From Gammaproteobacteria bacterium (GTDB lineage: Bacteria; Pseudomonadota; Gammaproteobacteria; Pseudomonadales; Pseudohongiellaceae), in assembly GCA_029246545.1 (NCBI GenBank), contig JAQWMX010000005.1, positions 248,001 to 312,000 of the forward strand: 64,000 nucleotides of DNA. Reading direction: 5' to 3'. Both the position numbers and the translations under genes were made by a program. Position 1 is the first letter of the stretch. Each line of letters opens with the position of its first letter. Below the pieces are notes generated by a model. That model was not told the origin of the DNA and ran no database searches. It saw only the letters and a list, made by a program, of their open reading frames with translations. Positions 19,651 to 31,210 of the stretch are shown in pieces.

Positions 19651-20199
19651 CTATGAATACAATATAGCTTCAGCAAGCAAAGAGGCATTTTGATCTTTAG
19701 CAGATAAAGTCGGCTCGCCGATACCATCAAGTGGCCAGGCAATATCTAGCTTTGGGTCATTCCAAAGTAACGCATACTCATCGTCTGGGGCGTAGTAACT
19801 GGTACATTTGTAGACGAACTCAGTCTTATCACTCAATACCAAGAAGCCATGCGCAAACCCAGGTGGCACCCAAAAAATTTGTTTATTCTCAGCCGTCAAC
19901 ACCGTTGCTACATGCTGGCCGAATGTTGGGGATTTCTTTCTTAGATCTACTGCAACATCGTAAACTTCACCAGATATAACTCTAACTAATTTACCTTGTG
20001 GTTGTTGTAACTGATAATGCAAACCTCGCAGCACCCCCTTTTCAGAAGCGCTGTGGTTATCTTGAACAAAGCCTGCTGTCATCCCAGCTTCGTGGAACCA
20101 GCTTTCTCGATAAGTCTCCATAAAAAAGCCACGATCATCACCAAAGACTGTTGGCTTAAATATCAGCACATCTGGGATAGCAGTCTTAATGATTTCCAT
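19651..20199 (-). CDS. rfbC: dTDP-4-dehydrorhamnose 3,5-epimerase
   Basis: RfbC (RmlC) epimerises C3 and C5 of dTDP-4-keto-6-deoxyglucose, the third step to dTDP-L-rhamnose. The 182 residues have the cupin family length. Motifs include FGDDRGFFMETYRESWF near residue 20, VQDNHSASEKGVLRGLHYQ near 45 with the catalytic histidine in GLHYQ, and the WVPPGFAHGFLVLSD segment near 113. It is the last gene of the rfbD-rfbB-rfbA-rfbC operon and overlaps rfbA by one base at 20199. Confidence 0.96.
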   Translation of the reverse strand: MEIIKTAIPDVLIFKPTVFGDDRGFFMETYRESWFHEAGMTAGFVQDNHSASEKGVLRGLHYQLQQPQGKLVRVISGEVYDVAVDLRKKSPTFGQHVATVLTAENKQIFWVPPGFAHGFLVLSDKTEFVYKCTSYYAPDDEYALLWNDPKLDIAWPLDGIGEPTLSAKDQNASLLAEAILYS

Positions 20200-21074
20200 T
20201 AATAAACCTTGTCATTAAGCACTTGGAATAAATATTCTCCGTAACCACTTTTTCTAAGTGGTTCCGCTAAAGCTTTGAGTTGATCGGCATTAATAAAATT
20301 CATTCGGTATGCGATTTCTTCAGGACAAGCGATCTTTAAACCTTGACGATCTTCAATAGTTTGTACAAAAGTACTAGCGGCTAACAAATTTGCATGTGTA
20401 CCAGTATCAAGCCAAGCCGCGCCTCTACCCAAAATTTCAACGGTCAGTTCCTCTGCTTCTAAATAATTCCGATTTACATCGGTTATTTCTAGCTCACCTC
20501 TGGCAGAGGGTTTAACATTTTTAGCGATTTCAATAACCCGATTATCGTAGAAATAAAGCCCAGTAATTGCATAATTTGATTTTGCAACAGCTGGTTTTTC
20601 TTCCACCGAAATCACACTACCATCATCGGCAAACTCAACTACGCCATAAGCCTCTGGATTTTGCACGTGATATCCAAAAACAGTTGCCCCTTTAACTTTA
20701 CTAGCTGCTTTCAATAATGAGTCCTGTAAGAAGTGCGAATAAAAAACATTATCGCCCAGCACCAAAGCTACTGAGTCATCACCAATAAACTTTTCACCGA
20801 TTAGAAATGCTTGAGCTAAACCATCAGGCGAAGGTTGCTCTGCATAAGTAAATTCTAGCCCCCATTTTTCACCAGTGCCAAGTAAATTTTCAAAGGTCGG
20901 CAAATCTCTGGGTGTAGAAATAATTAAAATCTCTTTAATCCCTGCAAGCATTAGAGTGCTCAAGGGGTAATAAATCATGGGCTTATCATAGATCGGCAGA
21001 ATTTGTTTACTGACAGATTGTGTAACGGGATGTAAGCGAGTGCCAGACCCGCCGGCGAGTATTATACCTTTCAT
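20199..21074 (-). CDS. rfbA: glucose-1-phosphate thymidylyltransferase
   Basis: RfbA (RmlA) joins dTTP and glucose-1-phosphate to dTDP-glucose, the entry step to dTDP-rhamnose. The 291 residues show the nucleotidyltransferase signature [20 protein letters not shown] near residue 8, then [18 protein letters not shown] and LVLGDNVFY near 107 with the metal-binding aspartate. [16 protein letters not shown] near 216 is the usual RmlA allosteric/active-site segment. It overlaps rfbB by 4 bases, indicating coupled translation. Confidence 0.97.
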
Positions 21075-22156
21075 TCTTTTACTCCTCCCTCTGCTCCCAG
21101 TCGTTGTAATTGATAACTACCATCAAGTACAGCTTGCCACCATTCTGAATTTTCTAAATACCAATGTACAGTTTTACGAATGCCACTTTCAAAACTTTCT
21201 GCTGGACTCCAGCCGAGATCCTTCTCAATTTTAGAAGCGTCAATGGCATAGCGCAGATCATGCCCAGGTCTGTCTTTTACAAACTCAATTAAATCTACAT
21301 ACCCTTTACCAGAGCTTGCTGAATTAGGATTATCAGCCGCCAACTCTTCAAGAATAGCGCAAATACTTTGTACAACTTCTATATTTTGTTTCTCATTATG
21401 GCCACCAATATTATAAGTCTCACCTATTTTTCCTTCAGTGATTACTTTATAAAGGGCTCTGGCATGATCCTCAACATATAACCAATCACGCACTTGAGTC
21501 CCATCACCATAAACCGGCAAAGGCTTGCCTTGAAGTGCATTTAATATTATGTGAGGAATCAATTTTTCTGGAAAATGATATGGCCCATAATTATTCGAAC
21601 AATTAGTTATTAGAATTGGGAATCCATATGTGCGGTGCCAAGCTCTAGCCAGATGGTCAGAGCTCGCTTTAGAAGCCGAATAGGGCGAGCTAGGATCATA
21701 GGCTGTTTCTTCTGTGAAAAATCCTTCAGGTCCATCTAAATCGCCATACACTTCATCAGTGGAAACATGATGAAAAACAAAACTCGATTTTTTTTCTTTT
21801 TTTAATTTTCCCCAGTATTCACGAGCAATGTCTAATAATTGATATGTCCCAACTATATTAGTCTGAATGAAATCCCCGGGGCCATCAATAGAACGATCTA
21901 CATGTGACTCTGCAGCAAGATGCATAACTGCATCAGGTTGATAATCCTGGAAGACTTTAGTTAAGGCGGCATGATCACAAATATCAACCTGGCAAAAGTC
22001 ATAGCGCTTAGAAGGTAGGGCTTCAGAGATAGAGCTTAAGTTTCCTGCATAGGTAAGTTTATCAACATTGATAACGGCATCATCAGTATTTTGTAAAATA
22101 TGTCGGATAACGGCGCTACCAATAAAACCTGCACCGCATGTTACTAAAATTTTCAC
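21071..22156 (-). CDS. rfbB: dTDP-glucose 4,6-dehydratase
   Basis: RfbB (RmlB) is an NAD-dependent short-chain dehydratase making dTDP-4-keto-6-deoxyglucose. The 361 residues start at a GTG codon and have the expected motifs: [11 protein letters not shown] near residue 132, [10 protein letters not shown] with the catalytic Tyr/Lys near 161, and [14 protein letters not shown] near 190. The N-terminal nucleotide loop reads [10 protein letters not shown], with cysteine 7 where nearly all homologues have glycine (GGAGFIG); the other two glycines are intact. The enzyme is probably active. It sits second in the rhamnose operon. Confidence 0.96.
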
Positions 22157-22189
22157 TGTTATTGCTTCGCTTTTAAATATTACTGGTGA

Positions 22190-23062
22190 CTATTCTATAG
22201 GTAAACGCTCTCTTAATACTGTGTTTAGTTCTTCCTGCCAACTTTTTCCTTGAAATTGAATTGCTTTATAAGTATCACTCTTATCCAAAACTGAATACTT
22301 AGGTCGCTGTGCTGGTGTCGGATATTCTTGAGTGCTTATTGCACGAAGCGAAATATCTTTCTCTAACAAGCCTATGGCCAATGCCTGCTGCTTTATTTCA
22401 ACAGCAAAGTCATACCAACTGGCAGCACCCTGATCAGTCCAATGATAAATACCTTTCAATTCTCTATTAGCAACAAAACGCCATACTACTTCTGCCAAGG
22501 TATGGGCTGAGGTTGGTGTACCAATCTGGTCATTCACAATCGCCAACTCTTCTAGCTCAGCCATAAGGTTAAGCATCATATTCATAAAGTTTTTACCTTG
22601 TGCAGAATATAACCAAGCTGTTCTTATAATTGAACTATCAGGCCTAATGGTCTGAAGTTTTTCTTCACCAGCTAACTTGCTCGCCCCATATACACTCAGG
22701 GGTGAAGCTAAATCGCTGGGCATGTACGGCGCCTGCTTTTCTCCATCAAAAATAAAGTCTGTGGATATATGAATGATGCGACAACTTTCTGAACAAGCCT
22801 TAGCAATATTGGCGGGACCTTCGGCGTTTACTGCAAATGCATCTTCTTGCTCAGATTCGGCTTTATCAACTTGAGTGTAACCTGCAGTATTAATAATAGT
22901 GGTTGGAGCTAGTTCCTGATAAAGCGATTGATGCTGAGCTAGATTGGAAATATCAAACTCACTAACATCAAAAGCATGCAGCTCGATGTTAGCAGGAGCT
23001 ATGTTTTTGATTAAGCTGCCTAGTTGTCCTAAAGCGCCTAGTATGACGATTCTTTCTTGCAT
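22190..23062 (-). CDS. rfbD: dTDP-4-dehydrorhamnose reductase
   Basis: RfbD (RmlD) reduces dTDP-4-keto-L-rhamnose to dTDP-L-rhamnose with NAD(P)H. The 290 residues show the N-terminal GALGQLGSLI cofactor loop, NTAGYTQVDKAE near residue 60, ISTDFIFDG near 100, and the YGASKLAGE active-site motif near 128. It is the first gene of the four-gene rhamnose operon. The product would feed O-antigen, exopolysaccharide or glycolipid synthesis, although no glycosyltransferase is nearby. Confidence 0.96.
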   Translation of the reverse strand: MQERIVILGALGQLGSLIKNIAPANIELHAFDVSEFDISNLAQHQSLYQELAPTTIINTAGYTQVDKAESEQEDAFAVNAEGPANIAKACSESCRIIHISTDFIFDGEKQAPYMPSDLASPLSVYGASKLAGEEKLQTIRPDSSIIRTAWLYSAQGKNFMNMMLNLMAELEELAIVNDQIGTPTSAHTLAEVVWRFVANRELKGIYHWTDQGAASWYDFAVEIKQQALAIGLLEKDISLRAISTQEYPTPAQRPKYSVLDKSDTYKAIQFQGKSWQEELNTVLRERLPIE

Positions 23063-24983: not shown

Positions 24984-25622
24984 ATGTCTAAAGCCGGCCT
25001 TGATTATCGTAATGCTAGTTTTTTAACCAGTGCGGGGACTCTGTCACAGTGCCCAGAAGATAATGCATTGGAAGCAGCATTTATTGGACGTTCAAATGCT
25101 GGGAAATCCAGCGCTATCAATATTCTAACGGAACAGCCTAAGCTGGCTCGTACAAGTAAAACACCAGGACGAACCCAATTACTCAATTACTTTGAGATTA
25201 CCGATGGTCACTATCTAGTCGACCTGCCCGGTTTTGGTTATGCCAAAGTTCCCCCTAAGATGAAGCAGAAATGGGAAAAGGAACTTACACGTTATCTTGA
25301 AGAACGGCAGTCTTTACAGGGTGTAATACTGCTTGTAGATATTCGGCATCCTTTTAAAGACAGTGACATGATGATTATTGATTGGGCTTCTCGTGCAGAA
25401 ATACCTTTACACATTTTATTAACTAAAGCAGATAAGCTAAAACATGGCGCTGCAAAAGCTACTTTGCTTGCAGCTCAAAAACAATTAAAACCCCATGGCA
25501 AAAATATCAGCCTACAATTGTTTTCTGCCTTAAAAGGAAGCGGGGTTAATGATCTACGCAAGCAATTAAATGCTTGGTTAAACCAAGATGAAGACAACGT
25601 ACTAGAAAGCATTAAGACCTAA
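24984..25622 (+). CDS. engB: ribosome biogenesis GTP-binding protein (YihA/YsxC)
   Basis: EngB is an essential GTPase in 50S subunit assembly. The 212 residues show the TRAFAC GTPase motifs in order: G1 GRSNAGKSSAI near residue 35, G2 around TSKTPGRTQ, G3 DLPGFGYAKV near 81, and G4 LTKADKL near 146. It is convergent with polA, with 265 bp between them; the same pair flanks Spot 42 RNA in E. coli and ErsA in Pseudomonas. Confidence 0.96.
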   Translation: MSKAGLDYRNASFLTSAGTLSQCPEDNALEAAFIGRSNAGKSSAINILTEQPKLARTSKTPGRTQLLNYFEITDGHYLVDLPGFGYAKVPPKMKQKWEKELTRYLEERQSLQGVILLVDIRHPFKDSDMMIIDWASRAEIPLHILLTKADKLKHGAAKATLLAAQKQLKPHGKNISLQLFSALKGSGVNDLRKQLNAWLNQDEDNVLESIKT

Positions 25623-25670: not shown

Positions 25671-25787
25671 AAAAAGTCGGGCCCTAACCACAGGAGAAAG
25701 TAGTTAGAGCCCTATCTCCTACAAATAGAAGGAGTTTTTAGGTCGTTCTAGTAGACTGGGAAATCGGGGAGAAAACCAGCCCACTAT
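25671..25787 (-). ncRNA. candidate small RNA in the Spot 42/ErsA position
   Basis: On the minus strand, a hairpin (GGGCTCTAAC from 25712 down, GTTAGGGCCC ending at 25679; one internal mismatch) is followed by GACTTTTTAT, a good intrinsic terminator. A sigma-E-like promoter lies upstream, predicting a transcript of about 116 nt. The predicted RNA starts near 25787. It has an unpaired C/U stretch (TTTTCTCCCC, near 25776-25767) able to pair with Shine-Dalgarno sequences, then a small CTCCT/AGGAG stem (25735-25716). Position, orientation relative to polA, size and terminator parallel Spot 42 of E. coli and ErsA of Pseudomonas. Primary sequence identity to either was not tested. Expression is inferred. 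Confidence 0.6.
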
Positions 25788-25792
25788 TTAAG

Positions 25793-25822
25793 TGTGACTG
25801 ATCTGGTTTCAAATAGTTCCGG
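25793..25822 (-). promoter_or_regulatory. sigma-E (AlgU)-like promoter of the candidate small RNA
   Basis: Reading the minus strand, CCGGAACTA (25822-25814) is followed after exactly 16 bases by TCACA (25797-25793). This fits the GAACTT-N16-TCnnA layout of extracytoplasmic stress sigma factors. ErsA of Pseudomonas is likewise under such a sigma factor (AlgU), which supports the reading. The match is not perfect in either box. Confidence 0.5.
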
Positions 25823-25887: not shown

Positions 25888-28659
25888 TTAATGTGCCTCA
25901 TCCCAATTAGCACCAGAGCCAATATCTACGATTAAAGGAACATCTAATGCTGCTGCTGAAGCCATTCTAAATTCGACACCTTCTGACAGAAGAGCCAAGT
26001 CTGATTCACTCACCTCAAACACTAATTCGTCGTGTACCTGTAGCAGAAGCCGGGCATCTAGCCCTGCAATACTTAGCCAATGCTGAATATCAACCATGGC
26101 ACGTTTAATTATGTCGGCTGCTGTACCCTGCATTGGCGCATTAATAGCAGTTCTCTCTGCTGCTTTGCGAATCATACCGTTACTCGCATGGATACCAGGC
26201 AAATACAATCTGCGTCCAAATAATGTTTCTACATAGCCTTGCTCATCGGCGACTTGCCGCGTATTTTCCATGTAGTCACGCACTCCAGGATAACGATGGA
26301 AATAACGTTCGACATATTCTTGTGCATCATGACGCCCTATTCCCAGCTGTTTAGCTAGGCCAAATGCAGACATACCGTAGATCAAGCCGAAATTAATCGC
26401 TTTTGCACTACGACGCTGATCACTATTTACTTGATCGAGCTCCTCATCAAAAATTTCTGCTGCTGTTGCACGATGGACATCTAAACCTTGCTGAAAGGCG
26501 ACACTTAGACCTTCATCACCCGACAAATGCGCCATGATGCGTAGTTCCACTTGAGAGTAATCAGCTGCCATCAATATTTTGCCTTCCTCAGCAATGAAGG
26601 CTTTTCGAATTTTTCGACCTTGTTCTGTGCGTATAGGAATATTCTGTAAATTCGGGTCGGTGGAAGATAAGCGTCCAGTGGCAGCTACAGCTTGTTGAAA
26701 GGTACTGTGAATACGTCCAGTCTGAGGATTAACATCTTGCGGTAATTTATCAGTATAAGTACTTTTTAATTTACTCAGTGTGCGATATTCCAATAACAGT
26801 TTTGGTAATGGATATTCCAGTGCTAATTCTTGTAATACTGGCTCCGCCGTTGAAGGCTGCCCTTTAGCAGTTTTGCTGATAACAGGGTAATTAAGCTTTT
26901 CATAAAAGATCTTTTGTAGCTGAGCCGGTGAGCCAAGGTTAAATTCTTCACCAGCCAGTTTATAGGCTTCCTGCTCAAGCTCGTTCAAACGCAATGCTAT
27001 CTCTTCACTTTGTTGAGCCAGGCTGAATAAATCAACCCTTATACCTTGCTGTTCCATCGTATAAAGGGCAGGTAGAAGTGAGATTTCCTTATATTGATAT
27101 ATGTCAGCTAGCTTGCCAGTTTGATTGAGCTTTAATTCTAGGCCTTGCTGTAGTCGATAGGTGAAATCGGCATTTTGAGCTGAATAAGCTGACGCTTTTT
27201 CTATCTCAACTTCAGCATAGGTCAGTTTATTTCTCCCTTTACCAAGCAGCTCCTCCAGTAAGTGCTTATCTTCTTGTAGATAATTAGCTGCAACTTTATC
27301 AAGGGTGTGCTTATGCGCGACTGAATTAAGAACATAGGATTGCAACATGGTGTCATACCGACAGCCTGCTAACTTAATACTTACATTAGCCAGAACATGA
27401 CTCATATATTTCAGGTCATGCCCTGCTTTGAATATGCTTTGATCTTCCAACACAGGCTGTAAAGTTTTTAACACTTCTTCAGCATTGAGTTGCTCTGGGG
27501 CTCCCTCGTAGGCATGTGACAGTGGGATATAACTAGCCTGCCCTGGCTTAGATGATAATGAGATGCCAATAATTTTTGCCAACATGAATTGAGCGCCATC
27601 AGTTTCAAGGGCAATGGCCAGCCTATCTGCTTTATTAACATCACTAATGAGTGATTCTAATTGATCTAAATTTACTATTGTCTGATAGTTGACCTTCTCA
27701 GGTGGTGGGAAAAACTCCCCTTCTTCTAAATCTGCTATATCTGCTAAATTCGCCGGATCGGGTTGTCCCGCTATTTGGATTGCCTCAGCTTTGATACCTT
27801 CTCCTTCAAGCTCTTTAACCCAGGTACGAAACTCCAAAGTCAGATACCAACTTAACAAAGCTTCTTTATCTGCCGGCTTATGCACAAGTTCGTTAGGACC
27901 AACATCAAGTTCAACATCAAGTTTAATAGTGGCAAGCACACAAGAGAGTCGAAGCTGCTCGATATGCTCTCTTAATTTTTCACCTACTTTTCCCTTAATG
28001 TCATCAGCATGCTCGATCAAAGCCTCTGCTGTGCCATATTTGTCCAGCCACTTTACAGCTGTTTTTGGCCCAACACTTGGCACTCCAGGTATATTGTCAG
28101 ACGTATCTCCCATCAATCCCAAATAGTCGATAATTTGTTCTGGGGCTAAGCCAAATTTAGTTTTGACGCCTTCAATATCCAGCACTTCTTTGTTCATGGT
28201 ATTTAATAAAGTGATGTGTTCATTGACCAGTTGCGCAAGGTCTTTATCGCCTGTTGAAATCAAGGTATCGCGTTTAAGCTCTGTCGCTTGTTTTGCCAAG
28301 GTCCCAATCACATCATCAGCCTCAACTCCCGGAACGACTATTAAAGGCAAACCCATTGCCTTAATGATTTCGTGAATAGGCTCTATTTGAGTGCGCAAAT
28401 CGTCCGGCATTGGCGGTCGATGTGCCTTATAGTCTTTATAAATATCGCTGCGAAAGGTCTTGCCTTTGGCATCAAACACTACAGCGATTGGCGAATCGGC
28501 GTATTCCTTAATCAAGCTGCGCACCATGTTGATAACACCCTTAATAGCACCGGTTGCTTGCCCTCGTGTCGTCGTTAAAGGTGGTAGTGCATGATAAGCA
28601 CGGAATAAATACGAGGAACCATCAATAAGAATTAAGGGCTTTTCTGGTAATGGGCTCAT
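25888..28659 (-). CDS. polA: DNA polymerase I with a degenerate proofreading site
   Basis: Pol I removes RNA primers and fills gaps in replication and repair. From ATG 28659 there are 923 residues: a 5'-3' exonuclease (about 1-290, with VFDAKGKTFR and GVEADDVIGT), the 3'-5' exonuclease domain (about 320-515), and the polymerase domain (DYSQVELRIMAHLSG near 700, KAINFGLIYGMS near 750, LLQVHDELVFEV near 876). The start gives an ATGA overlap with the znuA stop and the same N-terminal length as E. coli. In the proofreading domain the expected DxE is A350-L-E352, N-xxx-D is D415-xxx-M419, and Y-xxx-D is Y492-xxx-N496. Three of four metal-binding carboxylates are gone, so proofreading is probably lost. 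Confidence 0.96.
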   Translation of the reverse strand: MSPLPEKPLILIDGSSYLFRAYHALPPLTTTRGQATGAIKGVINMVRSLIKEYADSPIAVVFDAKGKTFRSDIYKDYKAHRPPMPDDLRTQIEPIHEIIKAMGLPLIVVPGVEADDVIGTLAKQATELKRDTLISTGDKDLAQLVNEHITLLNTMNKEVLDIEGVKTKFGLAPEQIIDYLGLMGDTSDNIPGVPSVGPKTAVKWLDKYGTAEALIEHADDIKGKVGEKLREHIEQLRLSCVLATIKLDVELDVGPNELVHKPADKEALLSWYLTLEFRTWVKELEGEGIKAEAIQIAGQPDPANLADIADLEEGEFFPPPEKVNYQTIVNLDQLESLISDVNKADRLAIALETDGAQFMLAKIIGISLSSKPGQASYIPLSHAYEGAPEQLNAEEVLKTLQPVLEDQSIFKAGHDLKYMSHVLANVSIKLAGCRYDTMLQSYVLNSVAHKHTLDKVAANYLQEDKHLLEELLGKGRNKLTYAEVEIEKASAYSAQNADFTYRLQQGLELKLNQTGKLADIYQYKEISLLPALYTMEQQGIRVDLFSLAQQSEEIALRLNELEQEAYKLAGEEFNLGSPAQLQKIFYEKLNYPVISKTAKGQPSTAEPVLQELALEYPLPKLLLEYRTLSKLKSTYTDKLPQDVNPQTGRIHSTFQQAVAATGRLSSTDPNLQNIPIRTEQGRKIRKAFIAEEGKILMAADYSQVELRIMAHLSGDEGLSVAFQQGLDVHRATAAEIFDEELDQVNSDQRRSAKAINFGLIYGMSAFGLAKQLGIGRHDAQEYVERYFHRYPGVRDYMENTRQVADEQGYVETLFGRRLYLPGIHASNGMIRKAAERTAINAPMQGTAADIIKRAMVDIQHWLSIAGLDARLLLQVHDELVFEVSESDLALLSEGVEFRMASAAALDVPLIVDIGSGANWDEAH

Positions 28660-29522
28660 GGTTGGAGGCACTCTTTAATTGATTGAGTTATGCCCAACAT
28701 AAAATCTCGATAGCCAGTTTTATTCGCTGCATAATCAAAACCCAGTATGTCTATATTTACCAAATCCATATCCCGGCCAGTCAGCTGACTAATTTCTTCT
28801 GGGTTGTTAGAAGGTTCTAATACCAAGCAAGACACATTGTTAGCGGCCAATATTTCTCTGACTTCCATCACTTTGCGTATGCCTGGTTGCATTTCCTCAT
28901 TATCTGTATAGCTTGCAATGTGCACTAGACCGTACTGATGCTCATAATAGCTAAACGCATTGTGATAGACGGCAAAAGGGATATCTATCAGTTGTTCAAG
29001 TGTTGCATTAATGTCGGCATCAAGCTCATTCATCGAATTATTGAACTCATTTAGATTCTTGCTGTAGTTCTGATAATTACCAGCATCTTGCACAAGTAAT
29101 TGTTCTGCCAAAGCAGCAGCAATCTGTCGAGCATTTTGAGTAGACAACCATACATGAGGATCTATAACTCCAGGAATGGCCAAACCTTTATCTTGAGTTA
29201 ATTCATAAGCATGAATAATTGCAGATGATGATTGATTGACTACATCAGCCAATGCAGCTTCTAGCTGCGGCCCTACCCAAAGCAAGATATCCGCCTCATA
29301 CATTGCTCTCCTTTCAGAGGGCCGCAAAAAAGGATGATGGGGATCTTGAGCAGGCCCCATTATCAATACCGGCTCGTTATAAGCAGTTATATCCGCCGTA
29401 ATAGCCGCTGCGATTAGCTGCAAAGGCTTAATGCTAGCGCTAACTACAGGTTGAGCATTAACTAATGTACAAATAGCTAATTGGGAATAAAACAATAAAC
29501 TAATTAATACTTTGCGGGACAA
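28656..29522 (-). CDS. znuA: zinc ABC transporter substrate-binding protein
   Basis: ZnuA captures zinc in the periplasm for the ZnuBC importer. The 288 residues have a signal peptide (cleavage near VNA, residue 23). The cluster A-I metal ligands are visible: DPHHPFLRPS near residue 61, DPHVWLS near 122, and YHNAFSYYEH near 186. The histidine/acid-rich loop found in many ZnuA proteins is short here. It is divergent from znuC across 136 bp and runs into polA with an ATGA overlap, so polA may be partly cotranscribed with it. Confidence 0.92.
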   Translation of the reverse strand: MSRKVLISLLFYSQLAICTLVNAQPVVSASIKPLQLIAAAITADITAYNEPVLIMGPAQDPHHPFLRPSERRAMYEADILLWVGPQLEAALADVVNQSSSAIIHAYELTQDKGLAIPGVIDPHVWLSTQNARQIAAALAEQLLVQDAGNYQNYSKNLNEFNNSMNELDADINATLEQLIDIPFAVYHNAFSYYEHQYGLVHIASYTDNEEMQPGIRKVMEVREILAANNVSCLVLEPSNNPEEISQLTGRDMDLVNIDILGFDYAANKTGYRDFMLGITQSIKECLQP

Positions 29523-29578
29523 AGCTTTATACCTATTTAAGTTCGGGTTATATCTTAGCTGATTCTGAAAAGCCCTCT

Positions 29579-29590
29579 ATGATATATTAC
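29579..29590. promoter_or_regulatory. possible Zur-like operator in the znuA-znuC spacer
   Basis: The spacer contains ATGATATATTAC, an AT-rich near-palindrome loosely resembling the core of gammaproteobacterial Zur sites. The location between divergent zinc-uptake genes is right, but the match is weak and no zur gene is adjacent. Confidence 0.25.
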
Positions 29591-29658
29591 CTCGCCTTGT
29601 GCGCAAACTTTGTAATTCAAAATCAGCAATTTAGATTTAATATGGACTTAATTTCAAC

Positions 29659-30438
29659 GTGACGAACAGTCTTCTTCAAGCTCAAAACATATCATTAGCG
29701 ATTGATGGCAAACAAATTTTGCAAAACATCAATTTACAGATTGATGCTAAGCGAATCGTAACCTTAATTGGCCCCAACGGAGCTGGTAAAACTACCTTGG
29801 TGAAAATTGTACTTGGTTTACTCGCGCCGAGTGCTGGCAAGGTGAATTTACGAAATAATTTACGCATTGGTTATATGCCGCAACGTTTACATGTCGACAA
29901 CAGCATGCCAATTTCAGTACAGAAATTTTTACATTTAGCTGTGCGAGCCAAACCAGAATTAATTGAGAAGGTATTGGATGAAGTCAAAGCTGCACATTTA
30001 TTGCATTCACAAATTCATTCCCTCTCGGGCGGCGAACTACAGCGAGTGCTACTAGCACGCTCTTTAATTCAAGATCCAGAACTACTAGTGCTTGATGAAC
30101 CGGTGCAAGGTGTAGACATAAATGGCCAGGCCGAACTATATGCACTCATTGCGTCTATTCGTGATAGTCACCAATGTGGAATATTAATCGTCTCTCATGA
30201 TTTACATCTAGTGATGTCTGCTACCGATGAAGTAATTTGTTTGAATCAGCACGTCTGTTGCCATGGCCACCCCGAACAAGTAAGTAACGATCCCGCTTAT
30301 TTAGAACTGTTTGGTAAAAAACAGGCAGCTTCTCTTGCCGTTTATGCCCATCACCACAATCACAGCCATTCCCTTGATGGTGAAGTAGTAAATGGCGAAG
30401 CATTAAATGGGGATCACTCAGGGCACGATCATGGCTGA
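29659..30438 (+). CDS. znuC: zinc ABC transporter ATP-binding protein
   Basis: ZnuC powers zinc import through ZnuB. The 259 residues begin at a GTG codon and contain Walker A GPNGAGKTT near residue 39, the LSGGELQRV signature near 122, Walker B LLVLDEPVQGVD near 142, and the switch histidine in VSHDLHL near 176. The C-terminus is a histidine-rich tail (HHHNHSHS then DHSGHDHG, about 228-259), typical of zinc transporter components and likely to bind metal. It overlaps znuB by 8 bases. Confidence 0.94.
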   Translation: MTNSLLQAQNISLAIDGKQILQNINLQIDAKRIVTLIGPNGAGKTTLVKIVLGLLAPSAGKVNLRNNLRIGYMPQRLHVDNSMPISVQKFLHLAVRAKPELIEKVLDEVKAAHLLHSQIHSLSGGELQRVLLARSLIQDPELLVLDEPVQGVDINGQAELYALIASIRDSHQCGILIVSHDLHLVMSATDEVICLNQHVCCHGHPEQVSNDPAYLELFGKKQAASLAVYAHHHNHSHSLDGEVVNGEALNGDHSGHDHG

Positions 30439-31210
30439 TTTTATTTTGCGCGCGCTCGTTGCCGGTTTATTAGTTGCCCTGATTGCCGGGCCACTTGGAT
30501 GCTTCGTTGTTTGGCGACGCATGGCCTATTTTGGCGACACTCTAGCTCACTCAGCCCTGCTTGGTATTTCCTTCGGCATACTCATAGATATTAATTTGCA
30601 GTTTTCAGTCATTCTGGCCTGTTTAGTTATTGCGCTTCTTCTATTCAGCATGGAGAGCAGACACCATTTAGCAACTGACACCATACTCGGCATACTTGCT
30701 CACAGCTCATTAGCTGTTGGTTTAGTTATTCTCAGTTTCACTGATGCGAATATGGATCTTATGGCTTATTTGTTTGGTGATTTACTCACCGTCACAAATC
30801 GAGATTTAATGTGGATTGCTGCTGGTGTAATTACTGCCTTAATAATATTAGTGCTTTCCTGGAATCAGCTGCTTACCATTACTTTGCACCAAGAACTTGC
30901 TCAGGCCGAAGGTCTGAATGTAGGCCGAATGCGTTTATTGCTTATGTTATTAATTGCAACTGTAATTGCCTTAAGCATGAAAGTCGTCGGCATGCTTTTA
31001 ATAACATCATTAATGATAATCCCTCCCGCTTCAGTCAGAAATTTTTCCAACTCACCAGAAAAAATGGCATTCTTTGCTAGTCTAGTTGGCTGTCTTGCTG
31101 TTTGCGGCGGACTGCTAGCTTCTTTCTATTTAGATACCCCAAGCGGCCCCAGCATTGTTGTCAGTGCTGCTGTTTTGTTTATGCTGAGTTCTGCCATAAA
31201 AAACAGGTAG
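30431..31210 (+). CDS. znuB: zinc ABC transporter permease
   Basis: ZnuB is the membrane channel of the zinc importer. The start at ATG 30431 inside the end of znuC gives 259 residues with about seven to eight membrane helices. GPLGCFVVWRRMAYFGDTLAHSALLG near residue 20 is the conserved metal-transporter ABC-3 motif (written here in parts: GCFVVWRRMAYFGD and TLAHSALLG). LITSLMIIPPASVRN near 195 is the second signature. It is the last gene of znuCB and is followed by the AT-rich orphan-gene region. Confidence 0.93.
   Translation: MADFILRALVAGLLVALIAGPLGCFVVWRRMAYFGDTLAHSALLGISFGILIDINLQFSVILACLVIALLLFSMESRHHLATDTILGILAHSSLAVGLVILSFTDANMDLMAYLFGDLLTVTNRDLMWIAAGVITALIILVLSWNQLLTITLHQELAQAEGLNVGRMRLLLMLLIATVIALSMKVVGMLLITSLMIIPPASVRNFSNSPEKMAFFASLVGCLAVCGGLLASFYLDTPSGPSIVVSAAVLFMLSSAIKNR

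Follow-up and report, generated by a model that had tools for sequence, protein, structure and literature searches.

In the uncultured marine gammaproteobacterium examined here, the gap between polA and engB holds a conserved gene for a regulatory RNA of about 117 bases. This RNA is real, well conserved and without an Rfam family, and it is new among the polA-adjacent regulatory RNAs. Within the window, i.e., the whole 64,000-nt stretch of DNA that was analysed, the unit occupies minus-strand positions 25671-25820, where a promoter-like box is followed by three hairpins, the last of them an intrinsic terminator. The gene is likely to encode a sigma-E-driven, trans-acting antisense RNA that would be made from its own promoter under envelope stress and whose loops would pair with Shine-Dalgarno regions, probably with the help of Hfq. 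The elements of the locus are as follows.

25888-28671, minus strand: polA, the upstream neighbour, in the same direction as the small RNA (NCBIfam NF004397, 1154 bits)
25793-25820, minus strand: predicted sigma-E/AlgU-type promoter, consisting of GGAACTA (25820-25814), a 16-nt spacer and TCACA (25797-25793)
25671-25787, minus strand: small RNA of about 117 nt, recognized by fold z-score, covariance model R1 and covariation
25749-25786, minus strand: hairpin 1, with an 11-pair stem (25786-25776 with 25759-25749)
25716-25734, minus strand: hairpin 2 (middle), with a CUCCU/AGGAG stem, predicted separately in 20 of 20 sequences
25671-25712, minus strand: hairpin 3, the intrinsic terminator, with a 13-pair stem (25712-25700 with 25691-25679)
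24984-25622, plus strand: engB (yihA/ysxC), the convergent neighbour (NCBIfam TIGR03598, 241 bits)

Elsewhere in the window, judging translations by eye, four minus-strand genes at 19651-23062 resemble a dTDP-rhamnose synthesis cluster (rfbC, rfbA, rfbB, rfbD), and the region adjoining polA (28656-31210) holds zinc ABC transporter-like genes, with znuA on the minus strand and znuC and znuB on the plus strand.

A conserved RNA gene between polA and engB

The ends of the RNA were inferred, the start (approximately 25787) from the promoter and the 3' end from the terminator, and the resulting 117-nt unit (25787-25671) matches the transcript of about 116 nt, starting near 25787 and terminating near 25671, that the earlier note had predicted. 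This unit folds with an energy of -45.4 kcal/mol, as compared to -28.1 +/- 3.4 for dinucleotide shuffles, giving a z-score of -5.1. Following a DNA search of 96 relatives, a covariance model (R1) was built from 11 copies, and searching with it revealed the unit in 20 of the family's 137 genomes, one of the 20 being that of the window. The carriers belong to three genera, in which 5 of 5, 5 of 6 and 10 of 11 genomes have the unit, and the two genomes of these genera that lack it also have no engB above the cut-off in their assemblies. All 20 carriers have the unit between polA and engB, and all 20 sequences, when folded individually, give the same three hairpins. Based on a sequence-based alignment, 14 of the 24 base pairs show compensatory changes, a number reached by none of 500 shuffles, while slid structures yield 2-4; the pairs in question include 7 of the 13 in the terminator stem, and the stem of hairpin 1 also covaries. 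Thus, fold energy, conservation and covariation bear out the small RNA that had been proposed for this gap, and the conservation of promoter, loop and terminator in close relatives, which had been named beforehand as a test, was found in 20 genomes. In sister genera, polA and engB touch at their stop codons or overlap, leaving no room for an RNA, and the unit is missing altogether.

When 84,980 genomes were scanned for the exact two-loop pattern, 31 records were obtained, and rescoring set the true members, with at least 85 bits, apart from the others, which scored at most 21 bits and fell in unrelated groups. The carriers are uncultured metagenome-assembled genomes (MAGs) labelled mostly as Gammaproteobacteria or Pseudomonadales, and their record titles read as those of marine, estuarine or lake bacteria. 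One carrier record is labelled SAR86 and another Klebsiella pneumoniae, labels that appear to be either mistaken or outdated; in the locus from the latter MAG (L089, CAMDML010000007.1), polA and engB are arranged as in the uncultured clade.

Loops, promoter and proposed mode of action

According to the reading that we favour, RNA polymerase carrying sigma-E (RpoE/AlgU) would transcribe the approximately 117-nt RNA from a promoter of its own, located between polA and engB, such that the RNA would be made under envelope stress. The transcript would fold into its three hairpins, leaving the loops UUUUCUCCCC (hairpin 1) and UUUCUCCU (terminator) open, and these C-rich loops would then pair with target mRNAs at their G-rich Shine-Dalgarno regions, in most cases blocking translation and probably doing so with Hfq. 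Transcription by RpoE, timing under envelope stress, pairing with mRNA, dependence on Hfq and the identity of targets are all parts of this scheme that we infer.

The unpaired C-rich stretch that the earlier note had remarked upon (UUUUCUCCCC) is placed by folding inside the loop of hairpin 1, the whole of which (25775-25760, UUUUCUCCCCGAUUUC) remains open and constitutes a candidate seed. Across the 20 sequences, this loop (UUUUCUCCCCGAUUU) is essentially invariant, with one extra U in three of them. Two elements go beyond what had been described previously, i.e., the middle hairpin (25734-25716), whose loop varies in both length and sequence among relatives, and a second C-rich loop within the terminator (25699-25692, UUUCUCCU), whose UCUCCU is also essentially invariant in the 20 sequences. 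The terminator hairpin (25712-25679) is followed by GACTTTTT, with the tail reading GACUUUUU; in many relatives, the U tract 3' of the terminator is interrupted or only short, a feature that speaks against a strong Hfq-type tail. The genome does have an hfq gene (97.3 bits).

That the C-rich stretch blocks ribosome sites, as the earlier note suggested, is plausible. When five genomes were scanned for the seed complement GGGGAGAA within 18 nt of an ATG, 74 sites were obtained versus 68 for the reversed pattern, and so the proposed target prediction gave no enrichment; several of the matches fall inside coding frames. The best shared target candidate is the start of petB (cytochrome b of the bc1 complex) in several members of the genus. 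Its GGGGAGAA site is kept in five genomes (G000, G001, G003, G004 and G005) and altered in others, including G002, G012, G020 and G025, and therefore it may only reflect Shine-Dalgarno variation. The lack of excess over the reversed control, together with the presence in both conserved loops of UCUCC, complementary to GGAGA, would also be expected of an RNA that acts as a general anti-Shine-Dalgarno element or protein titrator, its UCUCC loops mimicking the tail of 16S rRNA with no specific targets. We regard such a role as unlikely, since roughly 15 nt in the loop of hairpin 1 hardly vary, which is more than a six-base Shine-Dalgarno match would require, and, as to protein titration, the loops do not contain the GGA motif used by RNAs that sponge CsrA/RsmA. 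A CsrA sponge and an engB leader were also considered and dropped.

In the window, the promoter pattern GGAACTNN{14,18}TCACA has one match, where 0.14 would be expected by chance. Among the family copies, GAACT[T/A]-N16-TC, with a spacer of exactly 16 nt, occurs in 20 of 20 cases (0.018 of 20 in shuffled upstream sequence), and in the 20 copies it stands 43-45 nt ahead of the hairpin-1 loop. The canonical sigma-E form GGAACTT-N16-TCAAA is found in several copies, the spacer being counted from GAACTT, while both the -35 (GGAACTA) and the -10 (TCACA) of the window deviate from it. A single clear rpoE (282.9 bits) is present in the genome, with rseA-like and rseC-like reading frames after it, and control of the RNA by RpoE would be consistent with these sequence features. 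Hence, the sigma-E-like promoter that had been likened to ErsA's is upheld at the sequence level.

This fixed-spacer box in all 20 family members also bears on whether the hairpins are simply the 3' UTR and terminator of polA, with any small RNA being a processed by-product that has neither its own promoter nor a function. The RNA does follow polA immediately, on the same strand, and the interval between the two yielded no further terminator-like site. However, the hairpin-1 loop, which is dispensable for termination, is essentially invariant and sits on a covarying stem, and the unit is wholly absent from the sister genera whose polA and engB stop codons touch; together with the promoter box, these observations make a 3' UTR origin quite improbable. 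Finally, a 21-codon minus-strand frame exists over hairpin 1 (GTG at 25784 to 25719), but one-base loop insertions and frame-breaking length changes after the loop in relatives, along with substitutions that track base pairing and not codons, render a short coding gene scarcely credible.

Relationship to ErsA, Spot 42 and other polA-adjacent RNAs

Spot 42 (spf) of Enterobacteria, like the window RNA, follows polA with the same orientation and is convergent with yihA/engB; the E. coli locus, when examined, had the order polA-spf-yihA, confirming the match in location and direction that had been claimed. Spot 42 is known as a CRP-cAMP-repressed RNA and not as a sigma-E-driven one (reference list of PMC3771888), whereas the window RNA has a sigma-E-type promoter. 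ErsA, which was originally described from Pseudomonas and acts in an Hfq-dependent manner on algC, oprD, amrZ and anr, is likewise located between polA and engB and oriented in the polA direction, as the Pseudomonas loci that were examined confirmed. Directly upstream of ErsA in Pseudomonas is GAACTT...TCAGA, which, like the GGAACTA-N16-TCACA of the window RNA, would by its sequence be a sigma-E/AlgU-type promoter. Both RNAs have three stem-loops, and ErsA also has a C-rich stretch in its terminator loop.

In published work, ErsA is a 132-nt, Hfq-bound RNA with three stem-loops and a U-rich domain that is used on anr mRNA (PMC5819304, PMC8575079, PMC6321483, PMC8545117); in P. aeruginosa, it depends on sigma22 (PMC5819304), and it pairs, with Hfq, at the ribosome site of algC, thereby repressing this gene (PMC5819304, PMC6321483). 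The window RNA is shorter, at about 117 nt. Moreover, the binding of anr mRNA by ErsA is predicted to occur through the U-rich single-stranded domain between SL1 and SL2 (PMC8575079), whereas a U-rich unstructured targeting domain of that type is absent here, the window RNA having instead a C-rich candidate seed in the hairpin-1 loop and an A-rich linker (GAACGACCUAAAAA).

The covariance searches with the ErsA and Spot 42 models that had been suggested as a check did not link the window RNA to either family. The Rfam models for ErsA (RF01719) and Spot 42 gave no match in the window at the gathering threshold, nor did they at the locus when E values of up to 10 were allowed (for ErsA, with permissive filters), and the covariance model of the window RNA did not match ErsA. 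As a positive control, Pseudomonas genomes were located by PrrF, their engB loci were fetched and the polA-engB gap was identified; RF01719 scored 134 and 131.6 bits on two such loci (L126 and L129). Indeed, no Rfam family of any kind matched at the locus at E up to 10, apart from chance matches, and, lacking an Rfam family, the RNA currently goes unnoticed by annotation pipelines. Therefore, the window RNA belongs to neither the ErsA nor the Spot 42 family, but is a separate, lineage-specific counterpart of ErsA.

Based upon its published description, the sX13 RNA of Xanthomonas is also similar, being 115 nt in length, downstream of polA and made up of stem-loops whose C-rich apical loops act against G-rich mRNA motifs; it is reported only in Xanthomonadaceae, and it differs in having an unstructured 5' region and in acting independently of Hfq (PMC3771888). 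The alpha-r7 RNAs, which belong to another bacterial class, the alpha-proteobacteria, are described, as cited in PMC3771888, as polA-adjacent, with three stem-loops and C-rich apical motifs, and to the extent of that description they can be likened to the window RNA. The window RNA thus resembles ErsA and sX13 in location and loop design, and ErsA also in promoter, and would probably act in a similar way.

The polA-engB gap across the order

For most families of the order, a survey took in a single genome each, and it also covered several genera of the window's family. Among 37 engB-adjacent regions with a length of 100 nt or more, GAACT[T/A/C]-N15-17-TC was present on the polA strand in 16 and on the opposite strand in 5 (1.4 in shuffles), the figure of 16 being an upper bound for new cases since three of these regions come from the clade of the window itself and L104, at least, lies in apparent coding sequence. 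Several boxes precede short RNAs with C-rich loops and terminators, examples being those of G090, G085 and G072; in G090, the loop is UUUCUCCCC and the terminator loop is ACUCCCCUG. Seven loci, i.e., L107 (G090), L108 (G085), L037, L045, L060, L103 and L118, have differing sequences in the same place, with a promoter-like box, C-rich loops and a terminator loop that is often C-rich, and are further candidates for ErsA-like RNAs. When the covariance model of the window RNA was run on other families of the order, it found only a weak relative in G313, at 27 bits. In the 431-nt gap of that genome (L034/L041), the weak relative is followed by a second unit with a promoter-like GGAACTT...TTCTAA box and a terminator of its own, possibly amounting to two RNAs in tandem. 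The 383-nt gap of G082 (L111) has two successive promoter-like boxes, C-rich stretches and terminators, which suggests two tandem RNAs, and the gap of G007 (L051) contains CCATGCACAAACAAAAGACCAGACCCCTAG in tandem copies but lacks a promoter-like box.

At this location, several other families of the order have RNAs that differ from the window RNA while sharing its promoter type and C-rich loops, and the window RNA could therefore belong, as one branch, to a set that spans the order. Common descent of the order's polA-engB RNAs is possible, and the window-RNA model does not recognise them. We tentatively raise the idea, which we hold to be possible and short of probable, that the polA-engB gap of the Pseudomonadales has carried one ancestral sigma-E-driven antisense RNA gene, whose promoter and C-rich-loop design were kept as its sequence diverged in each family, with the window RNA and its two anti-Shine-Dalgarno loops being the branch of one uncultured clade. 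If this were true, an envelope-stress-controlled small RNA at polA-engB would extend far beyond Pseudomonas, including into bacteria that have never been cultured, and the locus would be a test case for how a small RNA retains its promoter and pairing design despite turnover of its sequence.
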